DNA from: Paraescarpia echinospica
Lineage: Eukaryota; Annelida; Polychaeta; Sabellida; Siboglinidae
Direction: 5' to 3'
DNA length: 64,000 bases
Assembly: GCA_020002185.1 (NCBI GenBank)
Contig: CM034541.1
Location: forward strand, 26,293,114-26,357,113
A program made the translations under genes and the position numbers. Position 1 is the first letter of the stretch, and each line of letters starts with the position of its first letter. The notes beneath the pieces are model-generated. The model did not search any database. It was not told the origin of the DNA and saw only the letters and a list, made by a program, of their open reading frames with translations. Positions 5,638 through 57,659 of the stretch are shown piece after piece.

Positions 5638-5775
5638 CTAGTTTAAATACTCAACTGTGCCTGTACCTTCACCTACGCACCTAATGAACTCACTCCCTAG
5701 AACTGCTGCTGCTTTTCCTGTCAGATGAAGCCCATCACTCATAATCAGATCTTCTCTCCTTACAAAGCTAGAGAG
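5638..5775 (-). pseudogene. Element A ORF1 C-terminus relic (SGNH block V)
   Basis: The minus strand encodes REDLIMSDGLHLTGKAAAV, then ends in TAT-TTA-AAC-TAG. This aligns with the C-terminus of the intact ORF1 (REDMYMRDGLHLSGKGAAV...YLN). DGLH is the Asp-x-x-His block of SGNH esterases. The last four codons are identical to the intact copies, so the heptamer TTTAAAC (5,641-5,647, minus) is preserved next to the stop codon. The open frame runs on to 5,904, but upstream of about 5,775 it no longer resembles ORF1. Confidence 0.8.
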
Positions 5776-17195: not shown

Positions 17196-17197
17196 AG

Positions 17198-18295
17198 TTA
17201 TTTCTTTGGCACTGGCACTTGTGGTGCGAGAGTTTGGTTGGTATTTCCGCCCCTCTTTTTTACTTTGATGATCTGTCTTTCTCCTGGGCGCCCTCTTACC
17301 AGGTAGACAAAATTTGTTGTCTGCTCCTGCTGTGTTTTTTCCCTTGCCTCCTTCTGTAGTAGTCGCTCCTTCTCTCTGTCATCTTTGCTCATGTCATGCT
17401 TTATAACCATTCCACTGAATGGTTCCCCTTTGTTTTTCAGTTTGTATAGGTTTTTCATGACAAAAGCTTTTTTATCCTCTTCTGGGAATGTTACAAGTAA
17501 CGGACGAGTTCTTGTTCCCTCTGTTTCCATTTCCTTTCTTTGTTTGCTCCCTAATCTCCTTACTTGTAGGTCTTCAGGTTGGTATTTACCATCTGTAGTG
17601 TATCCTGAAATTTCCCTCATTAGTTTCCTGTCATGAATAGTGTTGTCTTCTTTCAGAGTGCTGGTCCCCTCTGGCACATTGTATACCACAATGTTCTTCA
17701 TTCTGGTCATTCGGTCATTTATTTGGGTGCACACAGTGGCGACCATTTCATCTTTGTTTATGACTGGTTCTACGTATGTTGCTCCTAGTGATTCATGTGG
17801 TGTCTGAGTTTGCAGATTGGATACTTTTGAGACTGTCTCCTCAAGTTCATTGACTCTGGTTTGGAATGCTTTTTGTTTATTTTCCATTGCAGTCAATTTC
17901 TTTTCAAATTGGTCTTGACGCTCGTTCATGATAAGGATGTGTGACATGATTGCCTTTGCCCCTCTTTGGCATGATTTACAGTACCAACTGATTCGTTGGT
18001 TTTCATCGCTGGTTAATATGGCATACAAGGCATCAGACACACTTTGACAGACTTTGTGATACCATCCCTTACAGATGTCACACTCAATGGCGTCCTCGTT
18101 ATCTTTAACTTCCAAGCTGCAGTCAGGGCAGACACATTTTTCTTGATCTCTGTCAGCCTCTAATTTCTTGTTTGTTTTATGACTTTTCTTTGAATTGTGT
18201 CTTGATGATGTTGCCTTAGAGCTAGACGAGCTAGACGAGCTACCTCGTAGAGATCTTGATGTTTTAGATAACACTGGTGTACCACCAGTTGCCAT
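17198..18295 (-). CDS. Element B ORF1: PHD finger, coiled coil, RNA-binding domain
   Basis: 365 residues from ATG at 18,295. A Ser-rich basic N-terminus (1-50) leads into a C4HC3 PHD-type zinc finger (about 54-108: CPDC, CDIC, WYHKVC, WYCKSC). A coiled coil follows (about 120-165), then an RRM-like segment beginning NIVVYNVPEG (about 195-290) and a basic tail. This order is typical of CR1-group ORF1 proteins, which trimerise and coat the element RNA. It ends PVPKK-TAA at 17,198. A run GTA-AAA-AAG lies 18 codons before the stop and gives A-AAA-AAG in frameshift phase. Confidence 0.85.
   Translation of the reverse strand: MATGGTPVLSKTSRSLRGSSSSSSSSKATSSRHNSKKSHKTNKKLEADRDQEKCVCPDCSLEVKDNEDAIECDICKGWYHKVCQSVSDALYAILTSDENQRISWYCKSCQRGAKAIMSHILIMNERQDQFEKKLTAMENKQKAFQTRVNELEETVSKVSNLQTQTPHESLGATYVEPVINKDEMVATVCTQINDRMTRMKNIVVYNVPEGTSTLKEDNTIHDRKLMREISGYTTDGKYQPEDLQVRRLGSKQRKEMETEGTRTRPLLVTFPEEDKKAFVMKNLYKLKNKGEPFSGMVIKHDMSKDDREKERLLQKEAREKTQQEQTTNFVYLVRGRPGERQIIKVKKRGGNTNQTLAPQVPVPKK
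17255..17261 (-). promoter_or_regulatory. Candidate -1 frameshift heptamer A-AAA-AAG in element B
   Basis: In the ORF1 frame the codons are GTA-AAA-AAG, so the heptamer has the X-XXY-YYZ phase. ORF2 is in the -1 frame and open through this point. Because the heptamer is an A-run in AT-rich coding sequence, chance is a real alternative. Confidence 0.35.
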
Positions 18296-18989
18296 ATTTA
18301 TTAGATACTTAATACATACAATTTTTCATTAACCTACTATTAAATAATGTTTAATTCATTAATTTAAATATATATATATATCTATAAAAAAAAATATAAA
18401 TAATATTTTATTAACTTTTATACTAAATTGAATAGGTGCAAGTGCAGGGTTTGGGACTAGTGCAAACACCAACAGATAGAAGCAATGATAGGGTAAATGT
18501 TAGGTTTTTTTTTCTAGCCCTGGGCCGACTCAGGGCTTGAAATATGTTGAAGACACAAGGGTGATGATGATACACCCGAAGAAAGGCCTGTTAGTTCAGG
18601 AAGTGGCAAGACAGAGGAGAAGGATTTAAGAATATATAATCTACGTGTCTTATATACGTGTCTTATATAGCTAATGTATATTTAATTACTGTGATGTTTA
18701 GTGTTTAGAACACCCTGATTTATGCGAGTTGCATTGGGGGTGATTTGTGTTTCGCGCTCTTAGCTTATTGTTTACTTTTCCGCCATTTTGTTTTAAATTC
18801 TACAGGTGGTTGCTAAGCAAATATTTTGGCGAAATAAGACTTTGGAATGATTGATTGCAAATATATTAATACGTACGTATAGTAATGATGATATTACTGC
18901 ACCTTTGTAAGATTTAAACAATAACAGTCTTTATAACTTATGATATTAACTATAAATGTACGAGCGGGAAATAAGAAGAGATATAACCT
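18296..18989. other. No gene; possible 5' UTR of element B then unique DNA
   Basis: AT-rich near 18,300-18,420, with a small duplication of TCTTATATACGTG near 18,645-18,667. No coding signal. Confidence 0.5.
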
Positions 18990-28530: not shown

Positions 28531-29154
28531 ATAACCTGTCGAGGCTATATTTGGCGGAGATAGATCGTTGAAATTGGTGGTGTATCAAAGTTCATAAGCA
28601 AGTGGAATTACTGATTGATAAGTATTATTCTTGCCTTAATATCATTCATAAAGTACCAGTAAACATATATTGAGTAGCAGTTGTGCTTAAAGTTAGTTAG
28701 ATAAAGTATTTTAGGACACTTTAGTCTAGTGAGTGATAATAGGGTACGTTAGCTTACGGCTACGATAAGTTTGTAAACAAGATTTAACAAACCTCGTTAT
28801 GTGGTAGAATATATAGGTGATAAAGTAACAACCATAAACTACCTACATAAGATAATATCTGTGTAAGTCAGTACCTGCTAGACATTTTGATAAGGTAGCT
28901 TTGTTGTTAAAATTAAGCATTTGCGATAATCGGGCGAACTAAGTTTATGTAGCTAGTGTCTCTCTTATTCGCTAGGGCGCTGTATAACCTAAATAAATAA
29001 GGCAGTCTAGCGTACGCAATCTTACGTAAAGTGTAACATTTGTGCACAGAAAACAGTCTTCTTAAAGACTACATAGACAGTGAATAGTGTAAACACAGTT
29101 GACAAAACTATTTTAAATAGCTAATTAGATTATTATTATTAAATAAATTCTGAT

Positions 29155-30375
29155 ATGGCGCCTTGCAAGCGGCAAGTCAAGGCAAAGAGACACTTGGTGT
29201 GCGACGACTGCCACAGTTGGGTAGATTTTGCCTTATCCGGCTGTACGAAGTCATGGACAGAAACCAAGGAGGAGGGATTCACCTTTCAGTGCGTGGGGTG
29301 TTGGAAGGTGAAATGTCTGGAGAAAGAGGTAGCTAGGTTGGTAGATATTGTGAAGGGGATGGAGATGAGAATCAGCAAGGAGACAGATGGAATGGAGAGA
29401 GACGACAGGGATAAAGTTGGGAATACTGTGAAACTGAAGGAGCAGAGTAGTGGCAACAAGACCGAGGAAAGGAGACTGAGAGGAGGGAAGGTGATCGGAG
29501 GGGAAGAAAGTGGAGGATCGACGGCAGGAAATGTGACAGGTGTGAAGGTGGCAGGAGAGAAAGTGACCGTAGAGAAAGAGGTAGGAGGGAAAAAGAGACG
29601 GGAGAGGAGAGAAGGAAATGCAATGGGAGGAAAGATGACGGGAAGAAAGGAAGTGAGAGTACATGTGACAGAAGAGAAGTCGGGAGGGACGATGACAGGA
29701 AGAAAGGTGACAAGAGAAACAGCGTCAGGAAAGAATGGAACGGACGAGATTGTGACAGGAGAGCAGAAGACAGGGGAACAAGATTACAACCAGACAGATG
29801 CAAACCGTAGAAAGAGCTACACTGAGGCAGTGATTGAGGGGGCAATGAGGAAAGAGAGGGTGTTTATGGGCGATTCGATTATGAGAAAGACAGATAAGAC
29901 TCTAAGCGAGGGGGAGGACGTCGTTGTTTGTCTACCGGGGGCTAGGATAGAACATGTAACTGAAAGGGTAGAGAAGGTACTGGGGCATGGCAAGGGAGGG
30001 TCTATACTAGTACATGTAGGGACAAATAACGCAGAGAGGGAGGGAACAACTGGGATAGTTCAGAAGTACAGACAGTTAGTGAAGAAGTTAAAGAAGACAA
30101 GAGTAGAACAGATTATCCTCTCAGGAATTTTGCCAGTAATGGGAGGAAGGGGGCCGACATATAGAAACTGCAAGAGGATGGCGATCAACGCACTAGTTGA
30201 GCAGATGTGTAAAGAAGAGGGGGTGGGATTCGTAGATTTATGGGGATACTTTGTTGGGAGGGAAGATATGTACATGAGAGATGGCCTACATCTAAGTGGA
30301 AAGGGGGCAGCAGTTTTCTCAGAGAACTTGCTGCAATCTGTTGACAGTGGGACAGGCTGCATCTATTTAAACTAG
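29155..30375 (+). CDS. Element A ORF1: zinc domain + SGNH esterase
   Basis: 406 residues from the first ATG. Residues 16-54 hold a PHD-like cysteine cluster (CDDC at 16-19, C30, CVGC at 46-49). Residues about 80-215 are a Gly/Lys/Glu/Thr linker with imperfect GGKMTGRK-type repeats. From about 235 there is an SGNH hydrolase: GDS (about 239-241), LPGARIE (block II Gly), HVGTNN (about 286-291) and DGLH (about 376-379) supply Ser, Gly, Asn and His. SGNH esterase ORF1 proteins are known from CR1/L2 elements, where the role is unclear but may involve lipid association. It ends TAT-TTA-AAC-TAG, placing the frameshift heptamer against the stop. Confidence 0.88.
   Translation: MAPCKRQVKAKRHLVCDDCHSWVDFALSGCTKSWTETKEEGFTFQCVGCWKVKCLEKEVARLVDIVKGMEMRISKETDGMERDDRDKVGNTVKLKEQSSGNKTEERRLRGGKVIGGEESGGSTAGNVTGVKVAGEKVTVEKEVGGKKRRERREGNAMGGKMTGRKEVRVHVTEEKSGGTMTGRKVTRETASGKNGTDEIVTGEQKTGEQDYNQTDANRRKSYTEAVIEGAMRKERVFMGDSIMRKTDKTLSEGEDVVVCLPGARIEHVTERVEKVLGHGKGGSILVHVGTNNAEREGTTGIVQKYRQLVKKLKKTRVEQIILSGILPVMGGRGPTYRNCKRMAINALVEQMCKEEGVGFVDLWGYFVGREDMYMRDGLHLSGKGAAVFSENLLQSVDSGTGCIYLN
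30366..30372 (+). promoter_or_regulatory. Candidate -1 ribosomal frameshift site T-TTA-AAC, copy 1
   Basis: The ORF1 codons TAT-TTA-AAC-TAG contain the canonical U-UUA-AAC slippery heptamer in zero-frame phase, followed directly by the stop. Slipping back one base gives TTT-AAA-CTA-GAT, which is exactly the ORF2 frame. That frame is open across the junction and encodes the endonuclease N-terminus before any ATG. The same heptamer and stop occur at 44,671-44,680 and in the diverged minus-strand copy at 5,638-5,647. No stable downstream stem is obvious by eye. Confidence 0.65.
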
Positions 30376-33257
30376 ATTCGCAGGGGGGATTCACAGAGAA
30401 GCCTGAAACTGGAGGCATAGATAAAGACAGCAGAAATAAATCGGCAAAGAACAGCCTGGAAAACTGTTCTGAATCAGGATATAAATGCATTTGTTTAAAT
30501 GCAAGGAGCATAGTAAACAAAAGAAGTGAACTAAACATTATGGTAGAAGATATTGACCCTCACATAATAGGTATAACCGAATCGTGGGCCACCACTGATA
30601 TATCAGATGCCGAATTGGGACTAACAGGATATGTAATGTTTAGGAAAGATAGAATAGGAAGAAAGGGAGGTGGAGTTATTTTATATATTAAAGAATCTAT
30701 CCAGGCTTATGAAATAAAATTAGAAAGAGAAGCAGATTGCGAAGAAGCTGTTTGGTGTAACATAGTTACAGGAAACTCAACGTTAACAGTTGGGTTAGTT
30801 TATCGAAGTCCAAACATAAGCATAGAAGAGAATGAAAAAATACAAAACGCTATAAGGGAAGTAAGCAAACGGAACTGTATTATTATGGGGGACTTTAACC
30901 ATGGGCATATACAATGGAAATCTCTACAGAGTATGGGGAGTGAGGACCACAAGTTTTTAGTTTTAGTACAAGATAGTTTCCTTTCTCAACATGTGCTAGA
31001 ACCAACCAGGGGAGAGAATGTGTTAGACTTAGTTTTGTCCTCACAGAAAGAATTAGTTGACAATGTCAAGATATGTGAGCCACTGGGGAGTAGTGATCAC
31101 AACCAGATACATTTTACCATCAAAGTAAAATCAGAAAGGAATAGTAAAAAGCAGTATAGGAGAAATTTCCACAAAGGAAGGTATAAGGACATGAGGAAAT
31201 ATTTAGCAAAGATAGACTGGAATAACACACTGAAGAATAAGACAGCAACCGAATGCTGGAATATCTTAAATAGTGAAATTAAGTGCATAGTCGATAAATT
31301 TGTACCTTTCAAAAAACAAGGGAAACGGTCTAAAAAGAAACACTTATCGAAAGAAGCCATTAGAAAAATTAAGTATAAACAAATGATGTGGAAGTCATAT
31401 AGATGTACTGGAAATGATGAAGACTACAACATTTATAAAGAAGCACTTAATCAAGCTACAGCTGAAATTAGAAATTCAAAGAGAAGCTATGAAAAAAAAT
31501 TAGCTAGTAATATAAAACATGACAGTAAGAGTTTTTATGCGTATATTCGAAGCAAACAGAAAGTTCAGGATAAGGTCGGTCCTCTAGAAGATAGTGCTGG
31601 AAATACAATATCAGAGGGATTCTTAATGGCAGAAGACCTGAATGAGTATTTTAGTTCAGTGTTTACCAGGGAAGATATTAGTTCACTGCCAGTACCAGAG
31701 GCTAAGTTCAAGGGGGCAGATTCAGACTATTTAGGACAGTTAGTTTGTAACCTCGGAAATGGTAGCTAAGAAAATAAGGGCTATGAAGGATAATAAATCA
31801 CCTGGAGTGGACGGATTCCGCCCAAACTACTATTGGAAATTGTAGAACAAATTAGCGTACCGCTTGCAACAGTTTTCAACTTGTCATTAGAAGAGGGAGT
31901 GGTTCCTTTAGAATGGAAAGAGGCAAACATATACCGTTATTTAAAAAAAGGTTCGAGAAACAAGTCAGAGAACTATAGACCAGTGAGTTTAACATCAGTG
32001 ATTTGCAAATTATTAGAAAGACTAATTAAAGATCACATGGTGGATTTTCTTGTTAAACATAACTTGATAAACCCATCTCAACATGGGTTTTTAAAAGCGA
32101 GGTCATGCTTAACAAATATGTTATGTTTTTTGGAAGACATCACTAGGTGGGTAGATGAGGGTCACCAGTAGATATCATCTATTTAGATTTTCAAAAAGCT
32201 TTCGACAAAGTACCACATCAAAGATTACTCCTTAAGCTAAAGGCCCATGGCATAGGAAATGGTATAATAAACTGGATAGAAAAATGGCTGATTGACAGAA
32301 GACAACGTGTAGTAGTTGATGGGGAGGCTTCAAACTGGAAATCGGTATTGAGTGGGGTACCACAGGGATCAGTACTAGGACCTATATTATTATTAATATA
32401 TATCAACGATTTGGACGATGATATAACAAGCAAGGTGTTAAAATTTGCGGATGATACAAAAGTGTTTAGATGGATTAAAAGTGATGGAGACAGACAGCAT
32501 TTACAAGATGATCTTGATAGGTTGATCAAATGGTCTGAAAAGTGGCAAATGCTGTTCAATTTTGGGAAATGTAAATGCACACTCCCACTGATCCACTTGG
32601 AATGAAGAGGTAAAATATAAAATGGGGGGTACTGTTCTAAGTACTACTGTAAAAGAAAAGGACTTGGGGTTAACCATTAGTGCTGATATGAAGGTTTCAG
32701 AGCAGTGCGGAATTGCAGCGTCAAAGGGAAATCAAATCCTTGGATTAATTAGGCGAAATATAACGTATAAGAAAAAAGAATTAATAGTACCGCTGTACAA
32801 AACAATAGTGAGGTCTCATTTAGAATATTGTATACAAGCATGGAGGCCATATCGCAAGAAGGACATAGATATGCTAGAAAGAGTACAGAGGAGAGCGACT
32901 AAAATGATACCAAATCTGAGGGATCTTAGTTACGAAATACGCCTAAAAGAATGTGGTTTAACAACATTAGAGACCAGGAGATTGAGAGGAGATCACATAG
33001 AAGTGTTTAAAATATTGAATGGTTATGAAAATATTGATAGAAACATTTTTTTCTCAGTTAAGAAAAATAGAAGGACCAGAAGACATGAAACTACATTAGT
33101 AAAGGAGCAGTGTAGATTAGATATAAGAAAGTTCTCATTCTCACAAAGGACTGTAAATGAATGGAACAGCTTATCTCCTGATTGTGTTGGTGCTAGTAGC
33201 GTGAATATGTTTAAAAATAAAATCGACACACACCTAAAAAAGGCGGGATACATGTAG
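30373..33257 (+). pseudogene. Element A ORF2, copy 1, with clustered frameshifts
   Basis: Endonuclease (GDFNHGHIQW, SSDHNQIHF) and reverse transcriptase as in the intact copy at 44.67-47.56 kb. Relative to that copy there is an extra T near 31,745, a missing G near 31,816, a missing T near 31,931, a missing A near 32,162, and a scrambled patch of about 20 bases near 32,577-32,600. Outside 31.74-32.61 kb the two copies are almost the same. Lesions clustered like this, mostly single-base indels, could be sequencing or assembly errors rather than decay. Confidence 0.85.
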
Positions 33258-33306
33258 ATAAAAAGTATTGGACTCTCGATAAGCCAAAAGGCTTCCTTGT
33301 CCACCT

Positions 33307-33363
33307 GCCATCCAGAGTAATTTTCTGGATGGCAATCTTGTTAAATCTTGTTAAATCTTGTTA
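33307..33363 (+). other. Element A 3' hairpin and decamer tail
   Basis: GCCATCCAGA and TCTGGATGGC form a perfect 10-bp stem around a 7-base loop, followed by three AATCTTGTTA repeats (33,334-33,363). In CR1/L2/UnaL2-type LINEs a 3' stem-loop plus short repeats is the part recognised by the element's own reverse transcriptase. A smaller hairpin (AAGCC-AAAA-GGCTT) lies about 20 bases upstream. Confidence 0.8.
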
Positions 33364-34290
33364 GATCTCTCTGCCGCTTTTGACACGATTGATCACAACA
33401 TTCTCATTGAACGCTTACTAAGGTGGTACAACATATCTGACACAGCTCTACGCTGATTTTCTTTATTCCTAACTGATAGATACCAAGATAAAGATTGGGA
33501 ACTGCTTTTCGGCTGCACTGCCAACTTTATTTGGTGTTTCCCAGGGTTCTGTTCTTGGGCCTTTGCTTTTTACTCTTTACATCACGCCACTAAGCTCTGT
33601 TATACAAAGACATAACTTGGATCATCATCTTTATGCTGATGATACTCATATCTATATTTCGTTGGCTACCTTAACCATTGTTAGCAGCATATTTGGCTAT
33701 TGGAATTAACTCCTTTATAATATCACTAGCAAGGATATTACGAAACTTCAACGTGTCCAAAATTGTCTAGCAAGGGTAGTTAAAAGATCTCTTAGTTTTT
33801 CTCGCTCTGTACCACTTTTGAAATCTTTGAATCGGCTTCCTGTACGATATCGTATAATACTTCAGATCTGTACCATTACATACCAGGCACTGTCCAGTAA
33901 GCAACCATCTTATTTGCATTCAATGCTTAGTCCTGTAAGAAAACCTATCGAGCTTCGATTATCTAGTTCTGACCTACTTCTTGTTCCTAGAGTCAACACT
34001 AACATTGGAAATAGGGCTTTTTCTGTTTCTGCACCAATTCTTTGGAATATTCTCCCTCTTAGTGTTAGATCAGTTGAAAATATTACAAAATTCCGTCGTC
34101 ATTGAAAAACTTATCTTTACAACCTTGCTTATCCACCGTAGCTCCTTAGCGCCTTGACCCATCTTTTGACAACTGGAATACTGCATATGGATTTTGAGAT
34201 TGACCAATTCTTTTGTCTTGATGCGCCTCTGATCTTGGTTTCCAATGATTTAGGCGAAATAGAAGTTATCTTATTATTATTATTATTATT
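33362..34290 (+). pseudogene. L2-type LINE relic, 3' half
   Basis: It opens with DLSAAFDTIDHNILIERLL, continues through decayed blocks equivalent to [10 protein letters not shown] and [13 protein letters not shown], and keeps a readable C-terminus at 33,818-34,105 (LPVRYRIILQICTITYQALS, NRAFSVSAPILWNILPLSVR). It ends near 34,290 in an ATT microsatellite tail, as L2 elements do. Paired with 27,405-28,530 as one interrupted element. Confidence 0.8.
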
Positions 34291-34769
34291 AAGTAGTAAT
34301 ACGTCATCGTAATCCAACAAACATATGACATGGCATACATAACTAAACTCAAAAGAAAGCAATATCACTTTTGTTTTACATACAAACTGTATGTTATTGT
34401 CATGGCAACAATGAGGGAGCTTTTGGCAAGAACTGGTTGGCATAGGTCAGAAGTTGTTAAACACTGGTTGGCGACACAAAATTAGATCGCGCAGCGGGTG
34501 TCCTGTTTCTAGGTCGTTAGACCAACGAACAGCTCAGAGTTAGTGATTCCTCATGTTTAATAAGCTTTTTCAAAACACAAGTTATGATTTGTAATTTATT
34601 TTATGTTATGCATATTTATTTAACATACTTTTTCTTATCTTCCAAACTTAATTGCCTGAATGTATGGGTCGCCGGGTTAGTTCCCCCACACAAATTTGAG
34701 TTGCAGCCAAAAAAAGTTAAGAACCGCTGAACTAAATAATATCAGTTTTATATGTGACGTCTAGGCCCA

Positions 34770-34881
34770 GTGCTTATTCTTAATATTATGCTACCGGTAG
34801 GTGGTATATACATACGTGTATATACATACGTATACACACACATATATACATATATTTACATACACACGCACACGCACACGC

Positions 34882-34912
<31 letters not shown>

Positions 34913-35070
34913 TACGTATATCACACACCCGGTAATATATAATGTTCCTCTCCGATTCATATTCATTGAAATCATTTAGCCCATCGTATCGTAAGTGTGT
35001 GTGTATGTGCGTGCGTGCGTGCGTGCATGGATGTGTACGCGTGCGTACACGCATGGATGCGCGTGTATAC
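34770..35070. repeat. (CA)n / (GT)n microsatellites
   Basis: CA-rich runs at about 34,825-34,915 and a GTGC/GTGT run at about 34,995-35,050. The second copy at 49,100-49,345 differs in repeat number. The two runs are complementary in type and could pair. Confidence 0.9.
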
Positions 35071-35490
35071 ATTAATTATCTGTAAAATGTGCCCTTTTTA
35101 TTAATGATATTGCTCTTTTGTGACAATGCCCCCCCCGTGAAAATTCAATAAAAATGCACTGGGCACCATTGTAGCAATTTATTCCCAGCGATACAGGATG
35201 ACAAACGCCACGTAAAACTAACATATTTTGGGACTTTGCAAACTGATGCAACCTTTCTTAAACACTATGTATGGACCGTGTCTCAACCTTCCATCTCCCG
35301 TCTGACTGGGGGGGATACTCCCGATCTGTAAAGGTGCCACATCTTTTAAATTTCAAACCTTTGACTACCATGTCACTACTTCTCGTTGTTTCAGATTGGT
35401 GAACTGGCGCGACAAGCGGACACTACCACAACAACGTGTCGAAACTTCGATTGCTTCCATTGATCGTGACTACATCTTGGTCATTTGACG

Positions 35491-35550
35491 ATGGCGTTTA
35501 AACAGTGGAGCGTTAAAGTGTTTGTACTATTAATGGTAATCGTCATAATG
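35491..35550 (+). CDS. 5' end of the FKRP/LicD-like gene, copy 1, cut by the gap
   Basis: The first 20 codons (MAFKQWSVKVFVLLMVIVIM) are identical to the start of the complete gene at 49,776. Sequence then becomes N at 35,551. The same upstream acceptor-like TTGTTTCAG is present at 35,388-35,396. After the gap no LicD sequence is seen, so either the remainder lies in the gap or this copy is an assembly duplicate of the locus at 49.8 kb. Confidence 0.75.
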
Positions 35551-36550
35551 NNNNNNNNNNNNNNNNNNNNNNNNNNNNNNNNNNNNNNNNNNNNNNNNNN
35601 NNNNNNNNNNNNNNNNNNNNNNNNNNNNNNNNNNNNNNNNNNNNNNNNNNNNNNNNNNNNNNNNNNNNNNNNNNNNNNNNNNNNNNNNNNNNNNNNNNNN
35701 NNNNNNNNNNNNNNNNNNNNNNNNNNNNNNNNNNNNNNNNNNNNNNNNNNNNNNNNNNNNNNNNNNNNNNNNNNNNNNNNNNNNNNNNNNNNNNNNNNNN
35801 NNNNNNNNNNNNNNNNNNNNNNNNNNNNNNNNNNNNNNNNNNNNNNNNNNNNNNNNNNNNNNNNNNNNNNNNNNNNNNNNNNNNNNNNNNNNNNNNNNNN
35901 NNNNNNNNNNNNNNNNNNNNNNNNNNNNNNNNNNNNNNNNNNNNNNNNNNNNNNNNNNNNNNNNNNNNNNNNNNNNNNNNNNNNNNNNNNNNNNNNNNNN
36001 NNNNNNNNNNNNNNNNNNNNNNNNNNNNNNNNNNNNNNNNNNNNNNNNNNNNNNNNNNNNNNNNNNNNNNNNNNNNNNNNNNNNNNNNNNNNNNNNNNNN
36101 NNNNNNNNNNNNNNNNNNNNNNNNNNNNNNNNNNNNNNNNNNNNNNNNNNNNNNNNNNNNNNNNNNNNNNNNNNNNNNNNNNNNNNNNNNNNNNNNNNNN
36201 NNNNNNNNNNNNNNNNNNNNNNNNNNNNNNNNNNNNNNNNNNNNNNNNNNNNNNNNNNNNNNNNNNNNNNNNNNNNNNNNNNNNNNNNNNNNNNNNNNNN
36301 NNNNNNNNNNNNNNNNNNNNNNNNNNNNNNNNNNNNNNNNNNNNNNNNNNNNNNNNNNNNNNNNNNNNNNNNNNNNNNNNNNNNNNNNNNNNNNNNNNNN
36401 NNNNNNNNNNNNNNNNNNNNNNNNNNNNNNNNNNNNNNNNNNNNNNNNNNNNNNNNNNNNNNNNNNNNNNNNNNNNNNNNNNNNNNNNNNNNNNNNNNNN
36501 NNNNNNNNNNNNNNNNNNNNNNNNNNNNNNNNNNNNNNNNNNNNNNNNNN
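35551..36550. other. Assembly gap of exactly 1000 N
   Basis: A run of N from 35,551 to 36,550. The round length marks a scaffolding gap of unknown true size. Open frames spanning it are meaningless. Confidence 0.99.
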
Positions 36551-43125: not shown

Positions 43126-43460
43126 ATGCAGTAGCTAATACATACTACCTACATAAGATAATATCTGTGTAAGTCAGTACCTGCTAGACATTTTGATAAG
43201 GTAGCTTTGTTGTTAAAATTAAGCATTTGCGATAATCGGGCGAACTAAGTTTATGTAGCTAGTGTCTCTCTTATTCGCTAGGGCGCTGTATAACCTAAAT
43301 AAATAAGGCAGTCTAGCGTACGCAATCTTACGAAAAGTGTAACATTTGTGCACAGAAAACAGTCTTCTTAAAGACTACGTAGACAGTGAATAGTGTAAAC
43401 ACAGTTGACAAAACTATTTTAAATAGCTAATTAGATTATTATTATTAAATAAATTCTGAT

Positions 43461-44675
43461 ATGGCGCCTTGCAAGCGGCAAGTCAAGGCAAAGAGACACT
43501 TGGTGTGCGACGACTGCCACAGTTGGGTGGATTTTGCCTTGTCCGGCTGTACGAAGTCATGGACAGAAACCAAGGAAGAGGGATTCACCTTTCAGTGCGT
43601 GGGGTGTTGGAAGGTGAAATGTCTGGAGAAAGAGGTAGCTAGGTTGGTAGATATTGTGAAGGGGATGGAGATGAGAATCAGCAAGGAGACAGATGGAATG
43701 GAGAGAGACGACAGGGATAAAGTTGGGAATACTGTGAAACTGAAGGAGCAGAGTAGTGGCAACAAGACCGAGGAAAGGAGACTGAGAGGAGGGAAGGTGA
43801 TCGGAGGGGAAGAAAGTGGAGGATCGACGGCAGGAAATGTGACAGGTGTGAAGGTGGCAGGAGAGAAAGTGACCGTAGAGAAAGAGGTAGGAGGGAAAAA
43901 GAGACGGGAGAGGAGAGAAGGAAATGCAATGGGAGGAAAGATGACGGGAAGAAAGGAAGTGAGAGTACATGTGACAGAAGAGAAGTCGGGAGGGACGATG
44001 ACAGGAAGAAAGGTGACAAGAGAAACAGCGTCAGGAAAGAATGGAACGGACGAGATTGTGACGGGAGAGCAGAAGACAGGGGAACAAGATTACAACCAGA
44101 CAGATGCAAACCGTAGAAAGAGCTACACTGAGGCAGTGATTGAGGGGGCAATGAGGAAAGAGAGGGTGTTTATGGGCGATTCGATTATGAGAAAGACAGA
44201 TAAGACTCTAAGCGAGGGGGAGGACGTCGTTGTTTGTCTACCGGGGGCTAAGATAGAACATGTAACTGAAAGGGTAGAGAAGGTACTGGGGCATGGCAAG
44301 GGAGGGTCTATACTAGTACATGTAGGGACAAATAACGCAGAGAGGGAGGGAACAACTGGGATAGTTCAGAAGTACAGACAGTTAGTGAAGAAGTTAAAGA
44401 AGACAAGAGTAGAACAGATTATCCTCTCAGGAATTTTGCCAGTAATGGGAGGAAGGGGGCCGACATATAGAAACTGCAAGAGGATGGCGATCAACGCACT
44501 AGTTGAGCAGATGTGTAAAGAAGAGGGGGTGGGATTCGTAGATTTATGGGGATACTTTGTTGGGAGGGAAGATATGTACATGAGAGATGGCCTACATCTA
44601 AGTGGAAAGGGGCAGCAGTTTTCTCAGAGAACTTGCTGCAATCTGTTGACAGTGGGACAGGCTGCATCTATTTAA
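43461..44675 (+). CDS. Element A ORF1, copy 2, frameshifted near its end
   Basis: Identical in layout to ORF1 at 29,155 (zinc domain, linker, SGNH esterase), with two or three substitutions. One G is missing from a G-run at about 44,609, so the last 23 residues read GQQFSQRTCC... and the frame stops at 44,675, five bases before the normal TAG at 44,678-44,680. All SGNH catalytic blocks precede the lesion. Loss of one G from a homopolymer is a common sequencing error. If real, ribosomes would end in the wrong frame for the TTTAAAC site. Confidence 0.85.
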   Translation: MAPCKRQVKAKRHLVCDDCHSWVDFALSGCTKSWTETKEEGFTFQCVGCWKVKCLEKEVARLVDIVKGMEMRISKETDGMERDDRDKVGNTVKLKEQSSGNKTEERRLRGGKVIGGEESGGSTAGNVTGVKVAGEKVTVEKEVGGKKRRERREGNAMGGKMTGRKEVRVHVTEEKSGGTMTGRKVTRETASGKNGTDEIVTGEQKTGEQDYNQTDANRRKSYTEAVIEGAMRKERVFMGDSIMRKTDKTLSEGEDVVVCLPGAKIEHVTERVEKVLGHGKGGSILVHVGTNNAEREGTTGIVQKYRQLVKKLKKTRVEQIILSGILPVMGGRGPTYRNCKRMAINALVEQMCKEEGVGFVDLWGYFVGREDMYMRDGLHLSGKGQQFSQRTCCNLLTVGQAASI

Positions 44676-44677
44676 AC
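44671..44677 (+). promoter_or_regulatory. Candidate -1 frameshift site T-TTA-AAC, copy 2
   Basis: Same heptamer as in copy 1, followed by TAG (44,678-44,680). The ORF2 frame is open from a TGA at 44,647-44,649 through the heptamer and into the endonuclease. Confidence 0.65.
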
Positions 44678-47559
44678 TAGATTCGCAGGGGGGATTCACA
44701 GAGAAGCCTGAAACTGGAGGCATAGATAAAGACAGCAGAAATAAATCGGCAAAGAACAGCCTGGAAAACTGTTCTGAATCAGGATATAAATGCATTTGTT
44801 TAAATGCAAGGAGCATAGTAAACAAAAGAAGTGAACTAAACATTATGGTAGAAGATATTGACCCTCACATAATAGGTATAACCGAATCGTGGGCCACCAC
44901 TGATATATCAGATGCCGAATTGGGACTAACAGGATATGTAATGTTTAGGAAAGATAGAATAGGAAGAAAGGGAGGTGGAGTTATTTTATATATTAAAGAA
45001 TCTATCCAGGCTTATGAAATAAAATTAGAAAGAGAAGCAGATTGCGAAGAAGCTGTTTGGTGTAACATAGTTACAGGAAACTCAACGTTAACAGTTGGGT
45101 TAGTTTATCGAAGTCCAAACATAAGCATAGAAGAGAATGAAAAAATACAAAACGCTATAAAGGAAGTAAGCAAACGGAACTGTATTATTATGGGGGACTT
45201 TAACCATGGGCATATACAATGGAAATCTCTACAGAGTATGGGGAGTGAGGACCACAAGTTTTTAGTTTTAGTACAAGATAGTTTCCTTTCTCAACATGTG
45301 CTAGAACCAACCAGGGGAGAGAATGTGTTAGACTTAGTTTTGTCCTCACAGAAAGAATTAGTTGACAATGTCAAGATATGTGAGCCACTGGGGAGTAGTG
45401 ATCACAACCAGATACATTTTACCATCAAAGTAAAATCAGAAAGGAATAGTAAAAAGCAGTATAGGAGAAATTTCCACAAAGGAAGGTATAAGGACATGAG
45501 GAAATATTTAGCAAAGATAGACTGGAATAACACACTGAAGAATAAGACAGCAACCGAATGCTGGAATATCTTAAATAGTGAAATTAAGTGCATAGTCGAT
45601 AAATTTGTACCTTTCAAAAAACAAGGGAAACGGTCTAAAAAGAAACACTTATCGAAAGAAGCCATTAGAAAAATTAAGTATAAACAAATGATGTGGAAGT
45701 CATATAGATGTACTGGAAATGATGAAGACTACAACATTTATAAAGAAGCACTTAATCAAGCTACAGCTGAAATTAGAAATTCAAAGAGAAGCTATGAAAA
45801 AAAATTAGCTAGTAATATAAAACATGACAGTAAGAGTTTTTATGCGTATATTCGAAGCAAACAGAAAGTTCAGGATAAGGTCGGTCCTCTAGAAGATAGT
45901 GCTGGAAATACAATATCAGAGGGATTCTTAATGGCAGAAGACCTGAATGAGTATTTTAGTTCAGTGTTTACCAGGGAAGATATTAGTTCACTGCCAGTAC
46001 CAGAGGCTAAGTTCAAGGGGGCAGATTCAGACTATTTAGGACAGTTAGTTGTAACCTCGGAAATGGTAGCTAAGAAAATAAGGGCTATGAAGGATAATAA
46101 ATCACCTGGAGTGGACGGGATTCCGCCCAAACTACTATTGGAAATTGTAGAACAAATTAGTGTACCGCTTGCAACAGTTTTCAATTTGTCATTAGAAGAG
46201 GGAGTGGTTCCTTTAGAATGGAAAGAGGCAAACATTATACCGTTATTTAAAAAAGGTTCGAGAAACAAGTCAGAGAACTATAGACCAGTGAGTTTAACAT
46301 CAGTGATTTGCAAATTATTAGAAAGACTAATTAAAGATCACATGGTGGATTTTCTTGTTAAACATAACTTGATAAACCCATCTCAACATGGGTTTTTAAA
46401 AGCGAGGTCATGCTTAACAAATATGTTATGTTTTTTGGAAGACATCACTAGGTGGGTAGATGAGGGATCACCAGTAGATATCATCTATTTAGATTTTCAA
46501 AAAGCTTTCGACAAAGTACCACATCAAAGATTACTCCTTAAGCTAAAGGCCCATGGCATAGGAAATGGTATAATAAACTGGATAGAAAAATGGCTGAATG
46601 ACAGAAGACAACGTGTAGTAGTTGATGGGGAGGCTTCAAACTGGAAATCGGTATTGAGTGGGGTACCACAGGGATCAGTACTAGGACCTATATTATTCTT
46701 AATATATATCAACGATTTGGACGATGATATAACAAGCAAGGTGTTAAAATTTGCGGATGATACAAAAGTGTTTAGAAGGATTAAAAGTGATGGAGACAGA
46801 CAGCATTTACAAGATGATCTTGATAGGTTGATCAAATGGTCTGAAAAGTGGCAAATGCTGTTCAATTTTGGGAAATGTAAATGCCTCCACACAGGTCATG
46901 GGAATGAAGAGGTAAAATATAAAATGGGGGGTACTGTTCTAAGTACTACTGTAAAAGAAAAGGACTTGGGGTTAACCATTAGTGCTGATATGAAGGTTTC
47001 AGAGCAGTGCGGAATTGCAGCGTCAAAGGGAAATCAAATCCTTGGATTAATTAGGCGAAATATAACGTATAAGAAAAAAGAATTAATAGTACCGCTGTAC
47101 AAAACAATAGTGAGGCCTCATTTAGAATATTGTATACAAGCATGGAGGCCATATCGCAAGAAGGACATAGATATGCTAGAAAGAGTACAGAGGAGAGCGA
47201 CTAAAATGATACCAAATCTGAGGGATCTTAGTTACGAAATACGCCTAAAAGAATGTGGTTTAACAACATTAGAGACCAGGAGATTGAGAGGAGATCACAT
47301 AGAAGTGTTTAAAATATTGAATGGTTATGAAAATATTGATAGAAACATTTTTTTCTCAGTTAAGAAAAATAGAAGGACCAGAGGACATGAAGCTACATTA
47401 GTAAAGGAGCAGTGTAGATTAGATATAAGAAAGTTCTCATTCTCACAAAGGACTGTAAATGAATGGAACAGCTTATCTCCTGATTGTGTTGGTGCTAGTA
47501 GCGTGAATATGTTTAAAAATAAAATCGACACACACCTTAAAAAGGCGGGATACATGTAG
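44671..47559 (+). CDS. Element A ORF2, intact: EEP endonuclease + reverse transcriptase
   Basis: The open frame runs without a stop from the frameshift site to TAG at 47,557-47,559. The first in-frame ATG is at 44,845, but CLNARSIVNK (44,797-44,826), the conserved first strand of the endonuclease, lies upstream of it. I therefore start the feature at the heptamer. Endonuclease blocks: GITESW, YRSPN, IIMGDFNHGHIQW, GSSDHNQIHF. Reverse transcriptase blocks: SPGVDGIPPKLL, NYRPVSLTSV, FQKAFDKVPHQRL, GVPQGSVLGPILF and FADDTKVF, then a C-terminal VQRRATKMIP region. About 960 residues in the fused frame. With ORF1 it should perform target-primed reverse transcription in the nucleus. Intactness suggests recent activity. 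Confidence 0.9.
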   Translation, partial: FKLDSQGGFTEKPETGGIDKDSRNKSAKNSLENCSESGYKCICLNARSIVNKRSELNIMVEDIDPHIIGITESWATTDISDAELGLTGYVMFRKDRIGRKGGGVILYIKESIQAYEIKLEREADCEEAVWCNIVTGNSTLTVGLVYRSPNISIEENEKIQNAIKEVSKRNCIIMGDFNHGHIQWKSLQSMGSEDHKFLVLVQDSFLSQHVLEPTRGENVLDLVLSSQKELVDNVKICEPLGSSDHNQIHFTIKVKSERNSKKQYRRNFHKGRYKDMRKYLAKIDWNNTLKNKTATECWNILNSEIKCIVDKFVPFKKQGKRSKKKHLSKEAIRKIKYKQMMWKSYRCTGNDEDYNIYKEALNQATAEIRNSKRSYEKKLASNIKHDSKSFYAYIRSKQKVQDKVGPLEDSAGNTISEGFLMAEDLNEYFSSVFTREDISSLPVPEAKFKGADSDYLGQLVVTSEMVAKKIRAMKDNKSPGVDGIPPKLLLEIVEQISVPLATVFNLSLEEGVVPLEWKEANIIPLFKKGSRNKSENYRPVSLTSVICKLLERLIKDHMVDFLVKHNLINPSQHGFLKARSCLTNMLCFLEDITRWVDEGSPVDIIYLDFQKAFDKVPHQRLLLKLKAHGIGNGIINWIEKWLNDRRQRVVVDGEASNWKSVLSGVPQGSVLGPILFLIYINDLDDDITSKVLKFADDTKVFRRIKSDGDRQHLQDDLDRLIKWSEKWQMLFNFGKCKCLHTGHGNEEVKYKMGGTVLSTTVKEKDLGLTISADMKVSEQCGIAASKGNQILGLIRRNITYKKKELIVPLYKTIVRPHLEYCIQAWRPYRKKDIDMLERVQRRATKMIPNLRDLSYEIRLKECGLTTLETRRLRGDHIEVFKILNGYENIDRNIFFSVKKNRRTRGHEATLVKEQCRLDIRKFSFSQRTVNEWNSLSPDCVGASSVNMFKNKIDTHLKKAGYM

Positions 47560-47608
47560 ATAAAAAGTATTGGACTCTCGATAAGCCAAAAGGCTTCCTT
47601 GTCCACCT

Positions 47609-47655
47609 GCCATCCAGAGTAATTTTCTGGATGGCAATCTTGTTAAATCTTGTTA
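47609..47655 (+). other. Element A 3' hairpin and decamers, copy 2
   Basis: The same 10-bp stem as copy 1 (47,609-47,635) with two AATCTTGTTA repeats instead of three. L2 sequence resumes at TAGAT. Confidence 0.8.
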
Positions 47656-48582
47656 GATCTCTCTGCCGCTTTTGACACGATTGATCACAACATTCTCATT
47701 GAACGCTTACTAAGGTGGTACAACATATCTGACACAGCTCTACGCTGATTTTCTTTATTCCTAACTGATAGATACCAAGATAAAGATTGGGAACTGCTTT
47801 TCGGCTGCACTGCCAACTTTATTTGGTGTTTCCCAGGGTTCTGTTCTTGGGCCTTTGCTTTTTACTCTTTACATCACGCCACTAAGCTCTGTTATACAAA
47901 GACATAACTTGGATCATCATCTTTATGCTGATGATACTCATATCTATATTTCGTTGGCTACCTTAACCATTGTTAGCAGCATATTTGGCTATTGGAATTA
48001 ACTCCTTTATAATATCACTAGCAAGGATATTACGAAATTTCAACGTGTCCAAAATTGTCTAGCAAGGGTAGTTAAAAGATCTCTTAGTTTTTCTCGCTCT
48101 GTACCACTTTTGAAATCTTTGAATCGGCTTCCTGTACGATATCGTATAATACTTCAGATCTGTACCATTACATACCAGGCACTGTCCAGTAAGCAACCAT
48201 CTTATTTGCATTCAATGCTTAGTCCTGTAAGAAAACCTATCGAGCTTCGATTATCTAGTTCTGACCTACTTCTTGTTCCTAGAGTCAACACTAACATTGG
48301 AAATAGGGCTTTTTCTGTTTCTGCACCAACTCTTTGGAATATTCTCCCTCTTAGTGTTAGATCAGTTGAAAATATTACAAAATTCCGTCGTCATTGAAAA
48401 ACTTATCTTTACAACCTTGCTTATCCACCGTAGCTCCTTAGCGCCTTGACCCATCTTTTGACAACTGGAATACTGCATATGGATTTTGAGATTGACCAAT
48501 TCTTTTGTCTTGATGCGCCTCTGATCTTGGTTTCCAATGATTTAGGCGAAATAGAAGTTATCTTATTATTATTATTATTATT
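47656..48582 (+). pseudogene. L2-type LINE relic 3' half, copy 2
   Basis: Duplicate of 33,364-34,290, with the same frameshifts. C-terminus readable at 48,110-48,397. The hAT right end (GAACCGCTG, ending 49,021) follows, but no hAT left end exists on this side. Confidence 0.8.
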
Positions 48583-49099
48583 AAGTAGTAATACGTCATC
48601 GTAATCCAACAAACATATGACATGGCATACATAACTAAACTCAAAAGAAAGCAATATCACTTTTGTTTTACATACAAACTGTATGTTATTGTCATGGCAA
48701 CAATGAGGGAGCTTTTGGCAAGAACTGGTTGGCATAGGTCAGAAGTTATTAAACACTGGTTGGCGACACAAAATTAGATCGCGCAGCGGGTGTCCTGTTT
48801 TTAGGTCGTTAGACCAACGAACAGCTCAGAGTTAGTGATTCCTCATGTTTAATAAGCTTTTTCAAAACACAAGTTATGATTTGTAATTTATTTTATGTTA
48901 TGCATATTTATTTAACATACTTTTTCTTATCTTCCAAACTTAATTGCCTGAATGTATGGGTCGCCGGGTTAGTTCCCCCACACAAATTTGAGTTGCAGCC
49001 AAAAAAAGTTAAGAACCGCTGAACTAAATAATACCAGTTTTATATGTGACGTCTAGGCCCAGTGCTTATTCTTAATATTATGCTACCGGTAGGTGGTAT

Positions 49100-49345
49100 A
49101 TACATACGTGTATATACATACGTATACACACACATATATACATATATTTACATACACACGCACACGCACACGCACACACACACACACACACATACGTATA
49201 TCACACACCCGGTAATATATAATGTTCCTCTCCGATTCATATTCATTGAAATCATTTAGCCCATCGTATCGTAAGTGTGTGTGTATGTGCGTGCGTGCGT
49301 GCGTGCGTGCATGGATGTGTACGCGTGCGTACACGCATGGATGCG
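49100..49345. repeat. (CA)n / (GTGC)n microsatellites, copy 2
   Basis: Length variants of the arrays at 34,825-35,050: a shorter CA run and one more GTGC unit. Confidence 0.9.
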
Positions 49346-49775
49346 CGTGTATACATTAATTATCTGTAAAATGTGCCCTTTTTATTAATGATATTGCTCT
49401 TTTGTGACAATGCCCCCCCCCGTGAAAATTCAATAAAAATGCACTGGGCACCATTGTAGCAATTTATTCCCAGCGATACAGGATGACAAACGCCACGTAA
49501 AACTAACATATTTTGGGACTTTGCAAACTGATGCAACCTTTCTTAAACACTATGTATGGACCGTGTCTCAACCTTCCATCTCCCGTCTGACTGGGGGGGA
49601 TACTCCCGATCTGTAAAGGTGCCACATCTTTTAAATTTCAAACCTTTGACTACCATGTCACTACTTCTCGTTGTTTCAGATTGGTGAACTGGCGCGACAA
49701 GCGGACACTACCACAACAACGTGTCGAAACTTCGATTGCTTCCATTGATCGTGACTACATCTTGGTCATTTGACG

Positions 49776-51587
49776 ATGGCGTTTAAACAGTGGAGCGTTA
49801 AAGTGTTTGTACTATTAATGGTAATCGTCATAATGCTTGCTCTACTGGCGACCAAACACCGCTACACGTATGACAACACAATGTCAACACTTCCTAACAA
49901 ATACAAAGCACATTTGCAGAACATTGCCATACATTTATCGAAAGTCGTTGAGGCGACATGGCGTACGCCAGAAGCCCAGATAGAGGCACGCAATGCATTG
50001 ACACTCACGCAGGCCACACTAGCGGAATACGGCGTTGAGTTTTCGCCGAATAAAGTAAGCGAAACGACAAAGGGATCGCGAGAAAGGCCAACGGAGAAAC
50101 TCTTGGATGTATGCCCTGAGAAATATCTGGGAACCTCTGTCGACTACCCGTGGTTCGAGAAGGGACGCGTGTTGACCAACTGCACCAATGCGCGACCATT
50201 CCCTAGTGTCATATCTATTCTGTTGAATGGTTTTGATTACTCCAACGAAAGTCAGATTGTCTTGGTTCTACGCGAGATCTACGCCACGTATCCCCTTCTC
50301 ACCGTACATCTGGCCGTGGCTGAAAAGGTAGTCATTCCAGACGCTGTGAAACTGGGCGTTCAACAGCATATCCTCGGAAAGAATCCAGAAGCGAATGACG
50401 TATGGAATGGGCTTGTGGAAAAGGCAACGACAGATTACGTATTAGTCGGACGAAGAATTGAACGTTTCCAGTGGTACGCCCTCTTAGAAAGAATGGTTCG
50501 AATCGTGTCCGAATTGGGCGTCGATGCTGTAGGCGGTGCACTCCGGACACCAGATGGACATTGGTCAATGGGCTGTCAACAGACGCGTCTCCGGAACTAC
50601 ACTCTCACCTACAGAGACGGATATCACATATCGACAAATTCATGCGCCTACTGCGACTATATCCCGTCGCCATTCGTGAGTAGGACGTCGACGCTGCGAT
50701 ATTTCAAGTTCAAGATAGCGTCGCCAGACACGGTCTTCCACGACTACTTCTTGCGCCTGCAGAGAGACCGGAAACTGGTCATGTCGTGTCCGGATGCCAT
50801 GTTTTACGTCCTCGCGAACAACAAGAGTGCGTCCTCGCTACACAAACAATGGATACCGATGGTACAGAAGTATGCAATAAACCACGTGAGCTTGGCCGAC
50901 GGCCGACATTTGGCGTTTTCTTGTGGTGAGGCGAAGACCAAATTCTCTTGGGCAGGCGGTATTATCATACCCGTTTGTGCTGTCGAAACGTTGCTAAAGG
51001 GAATCATCGACGCGATGGACATTTGCAAAAAGATCGGCCTCTTCTGCCACTTGGACGGGGGAACAACATTAGGAGCAATGAAGTTCAAAGGCATTCTTCC
51101 TTGGGAACGCGACGCAGACTTGTCTTATGTGACGTCGAAAACCATCACTTTCTGGGAGCATCGTGACGAGTTCACGAAACTCGGCTACAAGTTGTCATTA
51201 AAGTATCCAAGCGAGTGTCGCAAGTTCGACCCGAGTAACGGACGGTGCCTTCACTATGATCTGGTCATTCCCCACTGGCGTATTGAATTGTGGGGCGCCA
51301 CTCCCCGTCTGATGACTGACTTCCTGCATGAGAACAGGATAGAGTCGACGAAGTTGTTGATCGGTGATCGCTGGATGAACGCCCCGACCAACCCCGCGTT
51401 GAACTCGCGCAATCGCTACGGCTACGAACTGTGGAAGCACGCGGAGCACTGGATTACCTTGGGCTACTCCTCGTCGTGGGTGCCATACCACGGGGGGGAG
51501 TACAAGAAGTGTCCTAAACCCGGAAGTCACGTGTGCTTGGACGGACAATATCCGGTCGATGGAAATATGGATTTCATCTACCCGTAA
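49776..51587 (+). CDS. FKRP/fukutin-like LicD-family transferase (type II membrane protein)
   Basis: A single-exon gene of 603 residues starting at ATG 49,776; an in-frame TGA lies about 24 bases upstream, so this start is sound. Residues about 8-27 (VKVFVLLMVIVIMLALLAT) form a signal anchor after a short cytosolic end, as in Golgi type II enzymes. Residues about 125-370 look like the glycosyltransferase-like stem domain of FKRP (RPFPSVISILLNGFDY, later MGC...SCAYCDYIPSPF, a Cys cluster). The LicD catalytic core is at about 418-450: CHLDGGTTLGAMKFKG then PWERDADL. FKRP and fukutin transfer ribitol-phosphate from CDP-ribitol to alpha-dystroglycan glycans. Here the first Asp of the PWDxDxD motif is Glu, a change I associate with LicD-like paralogues in invertebrates, so the acceptor is unknown. 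An acceptor-like TTGTTTCAG at 49,671-49,679 suggests a 5' UTR intron. Base composition is visibly richer in GC than the flanks. Confidence 0.78.
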   Translation: MAFKQWSVKVFVLLMVIVIMLALLATKHRYTYDNTMSTLPNKYKAHLQNIAIHLSKVVEATWRTPEAQIEARNALTLTQATLAEYGVEFSPNKVSETTKGSRERPTEKLLDVCPEKYLGTSVDYPWFEKGRVLTNCTNARPFPSVISILLNGFDYSNESQIVLVLREIYATYPLLTVHLAVAEKVVIPDAVKLGVQQHILGKNPEANDVWNGLVEKATTDYVLVGRRIERFQWYALLERMVRIVSELGVDAVGGALRTPDGHWSMGCQQTRLRNYTLTYRDGYHISTNSCAYCDYIPSPFVSRTSTLRYFKFKIASPDTVFHDYFLRLQRDRKLVMSCPDAMFYVLANNKSASSLHKQWIPMVQKYAINHVSLADGRHLAFSCGEAKTKFSWAGGIIIPVCAVETLLKGIIDAMDICKKIGLFCHLDGGTTLGAMKFKGILPWERDADLSYVTSKTITFWEHRDEFTKLGYKLSLKYPSECRKFDPSNGRCLHYDLVIPHWRIELWGATPRLMTDFLHENRIESTKLLIGDRWMNAPTNPALNSRNRYGYELWKHAEHWITLGYSSSWVPYHGGEYKKCPKPGSHVCLDGQYPVDGNMDFIYP

Positions 51588-56920: not shown

Positions 56921-57203
56921 TTTGACCAAAAGGAATAGAAGGAAAGAGGCACCACTCAAGATAAATATCGGTCGAAAAGTGAAGCCAGGGCAATTAGTGG
57001 CGCCACCCGGCGGCTATCTAAGAGAACTACGCAGTGGAGCTATATTTTCAATGTTGTAGCATAGCGACTTCACTAAAACAGCGCACAAATCCTTATCCTT
57101 GTGGGTACGTATGTACACAAACACACGCTACTTTGAAGACAATTATTTATTCTTCAAATGGGCTCTCCATTTTTTCTTTTAAAATAAAATATGTTGGACG
57201 CAT

Positions 57204-57613
57204 GTGCCCGCCGTATGCTGGATGTCACGTATGTGGGTGCCCGCCGTATGCTGGATGTCACGTATTGGGTGCCCGCCGTATGCTGGATGTCACGTATGTG
57301 GGTGCCCGCCGTATGCTGGATGTCACGTATGTGGGTGCCCGCCGTATGCTGGATGTCACGTATGTGGGTGCCCGCCGTATGCTGGATGTCACGTATGTGG
57401 GTGCCCGCCGTATGCTGGATGTCACGTATGTGGGTGCCCGCCGTATGCTGGATGTCACGTATGTGGGTGCCCGCCGTATGCTGGATGTCACGTATGTGGG
57501 TGCCCGCCGTATGCTGGATGTCACGTATGTGGGTGCCCGCCGTATGCTGGATGTCACGTATGTGGGTGCCCGCCGTATGCTGGATGTCACGTATGTGGGT
57601 GCCCGCCGTATGT
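57204..57613. repeat. 33-bp minisatellite, ~13 units
   Basis: The unit is GTGGGTGCCCGCCGTATGCT followed by GGATGTCACGTAT. Almost all units are identical; the second-to-third junction lacks one G. Because 33 is divisible by three and the unit lacks stops in most frames, it appears as repeated RRMLDVTYVGA, CPPYAGCHVCG, WVPAVCWMSRM or RRAPTYVTSSI peptides. None has independent support as a gene. Confidence 0.97.
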
Positions 57614-57659
57614 TGCGCCTACTTACCTGTTTACATATGCGACAACTACGGGACTTTTC

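Follow-up and report, generated by a model that had tools for sequence, protein, structure and literature searches.

A candidate -1 frameshift signal at the ORF1 stop codon of an esterase-type LINE from Paraescarpia echinospica

A long interspersed element (LINE) with two open reading frames, ORF1 and ORF2, was analysed in a 64,000-nucleotide stretch of the genome of the siboglinid annelid Paraescarpia echinospica (assembly GCA_020002185.1, contig CM034541.1, positions 26,293,114 to 26,357,113 of the forward strand), hereafter called the window. We propose that ORF2 is probably made by programmed -1 frameshifting at the heptamer U UUA AAC, located at the last two sense codons of ORF1. In this model, ORF1 would be translated from its own AUG, and a minority of ribosomes would slip back one base on the heptamer before reaching UAG and enter the -1 frame, yielding a fusion of ORF1, linker, endonuclease and reverse transcriptase (RT). 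The remaining ribosomes would terminate and release the ORF1 protein (ORF1p) alone. As most ribosomes would stop at UAG, the excess of ORF1p over RT would be set by the slip rate. The initial annotation of the window had put forward frameshifting at this place, and the present analysis supports that interpretation as a whole, the mechanism being deduced from sequence.

By the esterase in ORF1 and the endonuclease and RT in ORF2, the element was classed as a two-ORF, esterase-type (type IV ORF1) LINE of the CR1/L2 group. The ORF1 of copy 1 matched the SGNH/GDSL esterase family Lipase_GDSL_2 of Pfam (PF13472, 5.6e-13) and the PDB entry 4c1b ("ORF1-encoded protein", the zebrafish L2 ORF1 structure, 1.4e-20), and the ORF2 of copy 2 matched PF14529, PF03372 and PF00078 (AP-type endonuclease and RT). 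Three copies had been counted initially, of which only two were independent. Copies 1 and 2 belong to a 6.7-kb duplicated segment (32 substitutions and 11 indels between its copies) and, since the flanks of the LINE match too, they go back to a single insertion that was duplicated either in the genome itself or during assembly. The minus-strand copy was independent, with 74% identity over 2.7 kb. The "four independent agreements" claimed for the site were thus overstated. The ORF2 of copy 1 was disrupted near 31744, where it differs from copy 2 by 1 nt, and the ORF1 of copy 2 had one G fewer than that of copy 1, at about 44609, which explains its end out of the heptamer phase. The duplication ran up to an N gap (35551-36550) that cuts an ORF with a LicD domain; with its several single-base indel differences, it resembles a haplotype left unmerged or else a duplication of recent date.

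As annotated, TTTAAAC followed by TAG was present at 30366-30375, at 44671-44680 and, on the minus strand, at 5647-5638. The ORF1 of copy 1 ended TAT-TTA-AAC-TAG, and the heptamer was the sole in-phase XXX(AAA/TTT)Z among its 406 codons; when the codons of ORF1 were shuffled, such a heptamer fell on the final two sense codons with P = 0.005. It is the location, phase and conservation of TTTAAAC that are unusual in the window, rather than its mere presence. The exact zero-frame phase claimed for every copy was found in copy 1 and in the minus-strand copy but not in copy 2. Likewise, the -1 frame was open into ORF2 in copies 1 and 2 but closed after 7 codons in the minus-strand copy, so that of the persistence claimed for this old copy only the zero-frame phase stood. 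When the plus and minus copies were aligned, TATTTAAACTAGA was identical at 13/13 positions, compared with 27/57 within the 60 columns upstream and 39/77 farther downstream.

The statement that no AUG precedes ORF2 was borne out in the window, where the -1 frame contained none until 30540 (copy 1) or 44845 (copy 2). Three ATGs lay within 185 nt of the copy 1 junction: 30485 and 30499, both in wrong frames, and 30540, the first in frame, 164 nt past the ORF1 stop and inside the endonuclease domain. No AUG of the SART1 type, overlapping or adjoining the ORF1 stop, was seen in the window. A sequence search of PDB gave no usable endonuclease alignment, and the structure was therefore predicted (mean pLDDT 59, pTM 0.34; 49-88 for the endonuclease blocks; the RT part was poor and was left out). 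The predicted endonuclease fold matched those of TRAS1, L1 and R1 and placed an Asn of strand 1 at Asn14 of the L1 endonuclease, a catalytic residue. The first AUG of ORF2 in the window came after this strand, in agreement with the earlier view that an endonuclease started from an AUG would be incomplete.

The ORF1 search found 1205 relatives, the best 120 of which were listed and split by script into family A, the window's own (n = 37), and family B (n = 83); the only species named among them was the tubeworm Ridgeia piscesae, for two proteins. Among the matches listed, 108/120 terminated in x-L-N-stop (28/37 in family A and 80/83 in family B), x being S in 78, F in 16, Y in 10, C in 2 and L in 2. 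The residues right before xLN did not align between family A (...SGTGCNFLN) and family B (...IFGSKHSLN), and a third family, C, showed the end ...GKVRYLN. Twelve listed proteins lacked xLN: P0024 ended in YVN by substitution, P0060 read SLN and then KKCRGGT with loss of the stop, and ten were fused, frame-broken or truncated models (P0011, P0049, P0103, P0016, P0012, P0017, P0073, P0038, P0039 and P0062, the last five classed from sequence ends only). As a control, the zebrafish L2 esterase served as the query; 482 proteins were found, and the best 120 fish ORF1s were listed. The LN end occurred in 0/120, and 66 of the 109 readable ends were RSI, RTI or HTI; the LN end is therefore not general among esterase ORF1s.

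A search with region 1-320 of ORF2 found 253 proteins; of the best 120 listed, 119 were new, giving 239 proteins over both searches. The -1 frame was read across the junction by 15 of these 239, twelve with FKL, P0016 with FKQ, P0121 with VKL and P0136 with LKL. The nucleotide-level comparison concerns the window copies, and the family-wide nucleotide statements come from proteins read in two frames. Combining xLN-stop in the zero frame with FKL in the -1 frame left NNTTTAAAYTAG as the sole possibility for families A and C, a deduction that concerns each family as a whole because the two readings were taken from separate copies. Synonymous change in TTA-AAC had been named beforehand as an observation that would speak against frameshifting; at the protein level, NNTTTAAAYTAG alone was allowed in these two families, while the preceding codon varied, an outcome in favour of frameshifting to the extent that proteins can show it. 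Each of the x residues can be encoded by an NNT codon, and if that codon is TNT, S, Y, C and F are distinguished by its middle base alone; by this decoding, the codon before TTA can vary in all but its final T, where the heptamer starts. The arrangement expected of a programmed -1 site, XXXYYYZ in zero-frame phase, was thus found in the window, by dual-frame decoding in families A and C, and in the zero frame in family B; its counterpart, a downstream -1 ORF open through the site and lacking its own upstream AUG, was found in the window. The families sharing the junction motif had ORF2s 70-86% identical to that of the window and linkers that could not be aligned. Beyond the window, the AUG argument held for the readable family A linkers, except for a private Met of P0121; for families B and C an AUG is probably lacking too, the protein data being compatible with an ATG as well.

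Downstream of the stop codon, CAGGGGGG occurred in the window and in family B, where the bases after the stop decoded as AARTGCAGGGGGGGTAC (P0060 joined with the P0130 type, V being put for the written M), the first decoded triplet being AAA or AAG. QGG, its translation in the -1 frame, was the only fully conserved stretch in the linker of about 35 residues before the endonuclease (six representatives), with departures in the single proteins P0122 (LGG), P0125 (QGE), P0016 (QGD) and P0138 (RGG). The minus-strand copy retained GGGGGG (Table 1). The fixed CAGGGGGG probably belongs to the signal, either forming one arm of a stem or serving as a binding site for a protein or for ribosomal RNA (rRNA), and the G tract may act through a bound factor. 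In arteriviruses, a C-rich motif is bound by a protein. A bare heptamer may yield about a per cent of frameshifting, and a slip of this order may be sufficient for an RT.

Table 1. Positions, within the window, of the LINE features and of other elements.
Feature	Position	Strand	Remarks
ORF1, LINE copy 1	29155..30375	+	406 codons; Cys-rich N-terminus, SGNH/GDSL esterase domain, C-terminus ...GCIYLN before the stop
Slippery heptamer T TTA AAC, copy 1	30366..30372	+	in ORF1 phase
ORF1 stop TAG, copy 1	30373..30375	+	immediately 3' of the heptamer
CAGGGGGG island	30381..30388	+	8 nt past the heptamer; QGG in the -1 frame; common to families A, B and C
-1 frame into copy 1 ORF2	30345..31769	+	open across the heptamer
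ORF1 region, LINE copy 2	43461..44680	+	as read, ends at TAA 44673-44675
Slippery heptamer, copy 2	44671..44677	+	same duplicated insertion as copy 1
ORF2, copy 2	44650..47559	+	open in the -1 frame over 969 codons; AP-type endonuclease and RT
Endonuclease strand 1, copy 2	44782..44805	+	predicted structure, fold match; Asn at 44803-44805 placed at L1 Asn14; precedes the first AUG, 44845
Slippery heptamer, old minus-strand copy	5641..5647	-	followed by TAG 5640-5638 and GGGGGG 5631-5626
Duplicated segment, first copy	28838..35550	+	99.0% identical to the second copy over the whole length
Duplicated segment, second copy	43144..49835	+	
Second, different LINE	14250-18325	-	
ORF1, second LINE	17198-18325	-	weak PHD-finger match
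ORF2, second LINE	14250-17378	-	1042 codons; overlaps ORF1 by about 180 nt, in the -1 frame
Short tandem repeat	57183-57683		open in several frames on both strands (CPPYAGCHVCG / RRMLDVTYVGA repeats)

Several observations weigh against frameshifting. Neither copy 1 nor copy 2 had both ORFs intact together. Many relatives came as multiple copies from a small number of genomes, and among the -1 readers several were near-identical to one another, so that the counts do not represent independent events. The heptamer of family B was known from the zero frame only, the zero-frame end of family C was seen once (P0154), the last base of the heptamer outside the window was C or T by the protein data, and the control covered one fish lineage. 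Folding the downstream bases, as the initial annotation had suggested, revealed no stable structure: folds of 128, 88 and 46 nt of copy 1 were no better than shuffles (z = -0.45, -0.42 and -0.48, respectively), the folds being nested ones free of pseudoknots. A downstream pairing partner of the G tract was searched for and none was better than shuffles; an upstream pairing reached -10.8 kcal/mol, a value without shuffle comparison. Furthermore, 42 of the 119 new ORF2-search proteins started in the linker or at NARS, 41 of them written with M. The M stood before FKL or VKL in 4 models, before QGG in 5 (family B), before GQGG or GRGG in 7 (family C), before SKK and similar in 19 and before CLNARS in 3, and it was at NARS in 1; two more began MGLSKK or MGLLKK. 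The protein data of family B permit ATG as well as GTG before QGG, and a true ATG before GQGG in family C would give UAAUG, the SART1 arrangement.

These starts bear on the alternative of coupled termination and reinitiation, in which the TTTAAACTAG...CAGGGGGG block would hold or recruit the post-termination ribosome and let it restart in the -1 frame. The restart codon would be other than AUG in the family of the window, and in families B and C it might be an AUG (UAAUG or close by). Reinitiation is described for SART1 and proposed for L1 (PMC5902531, PMC2881922); the conserved block straddles the stop codon, and 12 of the M starts were right before QGG or GQGG, where an ATG is permitted by the proteins. 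We nevertheless consider it unlikely. The window had no AUG overlapping the stop or close after it, and an in-phase XXXYYYZ is unnecessary for a restart site. When the same residues were internal they were never M: V in 6/6 before GQGG, V in 46/49 before CLNARS and, before SKK and similar after QGG, L in 12/14 with one K and one E. The 42nd linker-start model, P0126, from another source, was written with V before QGG. Since the internal residues were V or L and P0126 carried V, we think that the linker M in families B and C marks GTG or TTG starts written as M. Family A had V/D and S at the corresponding places, with no common start, and from QGG onward 27 of 29 readable linkers were free of Met, P0121 and P0167 having one each. 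The M starts of families B and C, where a true AUG is possible, led us to lower our confidence in frameshifting by a small step, from high to fairly high.

Other explanations appeared far weaker. The C-terminal Leu-Asn might be retained for a protein reason, the heptamer being a by-product and ORF2 being made otherwise, as the frequency of LN termini in the listed ORF1 relatives would allow. This is very improbable, because Leu has six codons and yet FKL in the -1 frame forces TTA and also, in the codon ahead of it, a final T that the protein could do without, and because fish L2 ORF1s with the same esterase lack LN. We give as little credit to chance or plain common descent, by which the heptamer would have been merely copied along with the junction. 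TTTAAAC was not enriched in the window (21 observed versus 18.2 expected), which fits this idea, as does the fact that two of the three window copies are one insertion; against it, the motif was intact while its flanks had diverged to about 50%, and it was common to families with ORF2s 70-86% identical to that of the window and unalignable linkers. Expression of ORF2 from a spliced or separately promoted RNA supplying an AUG upstream is extremely improbable. Nothing direct favours it, and the gene models that fuse ORF1 and ORF2 (P0011, P0164 and P0168) are most simply model artefacts; it would give no reason for a conserved heptamer, and a LINE must copy its entire RNA. Readthrough of the stop codon was rejected, as the zero frame past TAG meets a second TAG after 14 codons.

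The frameshift site proposed here resembles the -1 sites of retroviruses, long terminal repeat (LTR) retrotransposons and coronaviruses in its zero-frame XXXYYYZ and in the polymerase ORF lying in the -1 frame without a separate start; UUUAAAC is the coronavirus heptamer. It differs from them in its host, a non-LTR retrotransposon, in the stop adjoining the heptamer, and in the fixed G tract at the usual spacer distance, where nested folds revealed no stem. SART1 (UAAUG) and human L1 are likewise two-ORF LINEs with ORF1 upstream of an endonuclease-RT ORF2; unlike them, the window element had no AUG at or near the stop, and its first in-frame AUG was inside the endonuclease domain. Zebrafish ZfL2-1 and the fish L2 elements share the SGNH esterase ORF1 (PDB 4c1b) and differ in their ORF1 ends. 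Frameshifting has also been suggested for the ORF2 of Paramecium non-LTR elements, in that case +1 frameshifting or reinitiation, or readthrough, from consensus sequences (PMC5405496). LTR elements are described as frameshifting and non-LTR elements as reinitiating at UAAUG (PMC5902531). Section 13 of PMC5009743 lists no ORF1-ORF2 frameshift for a LINE; HeT-A gag requires a frameshift. Zorro3 is reported to require its ORF2 ATG (PMC1965478). In the portions of text it covered, a full-text literature search turned up no -1 site between ORF1 and ORF2 of a CR1/L2 element; such a site might be described in Kapitonov and Jurka 2003 or in Kojima 2005.

A broader idea, which we put forward as a speculative possibility, is that an animal LINE lineage of at least three families uses a retrovirus-like gag-pol strategy in which slipping at UUUAAAC-UAG would be driven by the fixed CAGGGGGG, perhaps bound by ORF1p, a host factor or rRNA, and not by a pseudoknot. 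If frameshifting is correct, a retroviral solution would be added to the LINE class, the ratio of ORF1p to RT would be set by a readable 7-base signal, and one fusion protein would hold esterase, endonuclease and RT together.

In searches for related DNA, viral contigs queried with ORF2, P0003 and two alignments gave no confirmed relative, and genome contigs searched with ORF2 and phages searched with ORF2 DNA gave no match. The pattern TTTAAACTAGN5CAGGGGG had 0 matches in viral contigs and matched two bacterial contigs among the genome contigs; both were taken as chance matches because tblastn against ORF1 and ORF2 was insignificant (best E 0.13).

Some additional features were observed in the relatives and in the window. 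In the family C models P0191 and P0194, an SH3 domain (Pfam SH3_9, 1.7e-8 and 2e-8) preceded the esterase region within the LINE ORF1 part. The fish L2 models P0271, P0313 and P0314 continued beyond the usual ORF1 end as ...SI-WLVSQFSNN..., with a Trp in place of the stop of other copies, a possible sign of a TGA there followed by in-frame continuation. A short tandem repeat was present towards the right end of the window (Table 1). In the second LINE, ORF2 had no Met in its first 117 residues, a stretch reaching beyond the likely endonuclease Asn (placed by eye), and two heptamers in phase fell within the overlap with ORF1, AAATTTT starting at 17315 and AAAAAAG starting at 17261, against 0.44 expected (codon shuffle P = 0.08). 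This element may need the same -1 frameshift.
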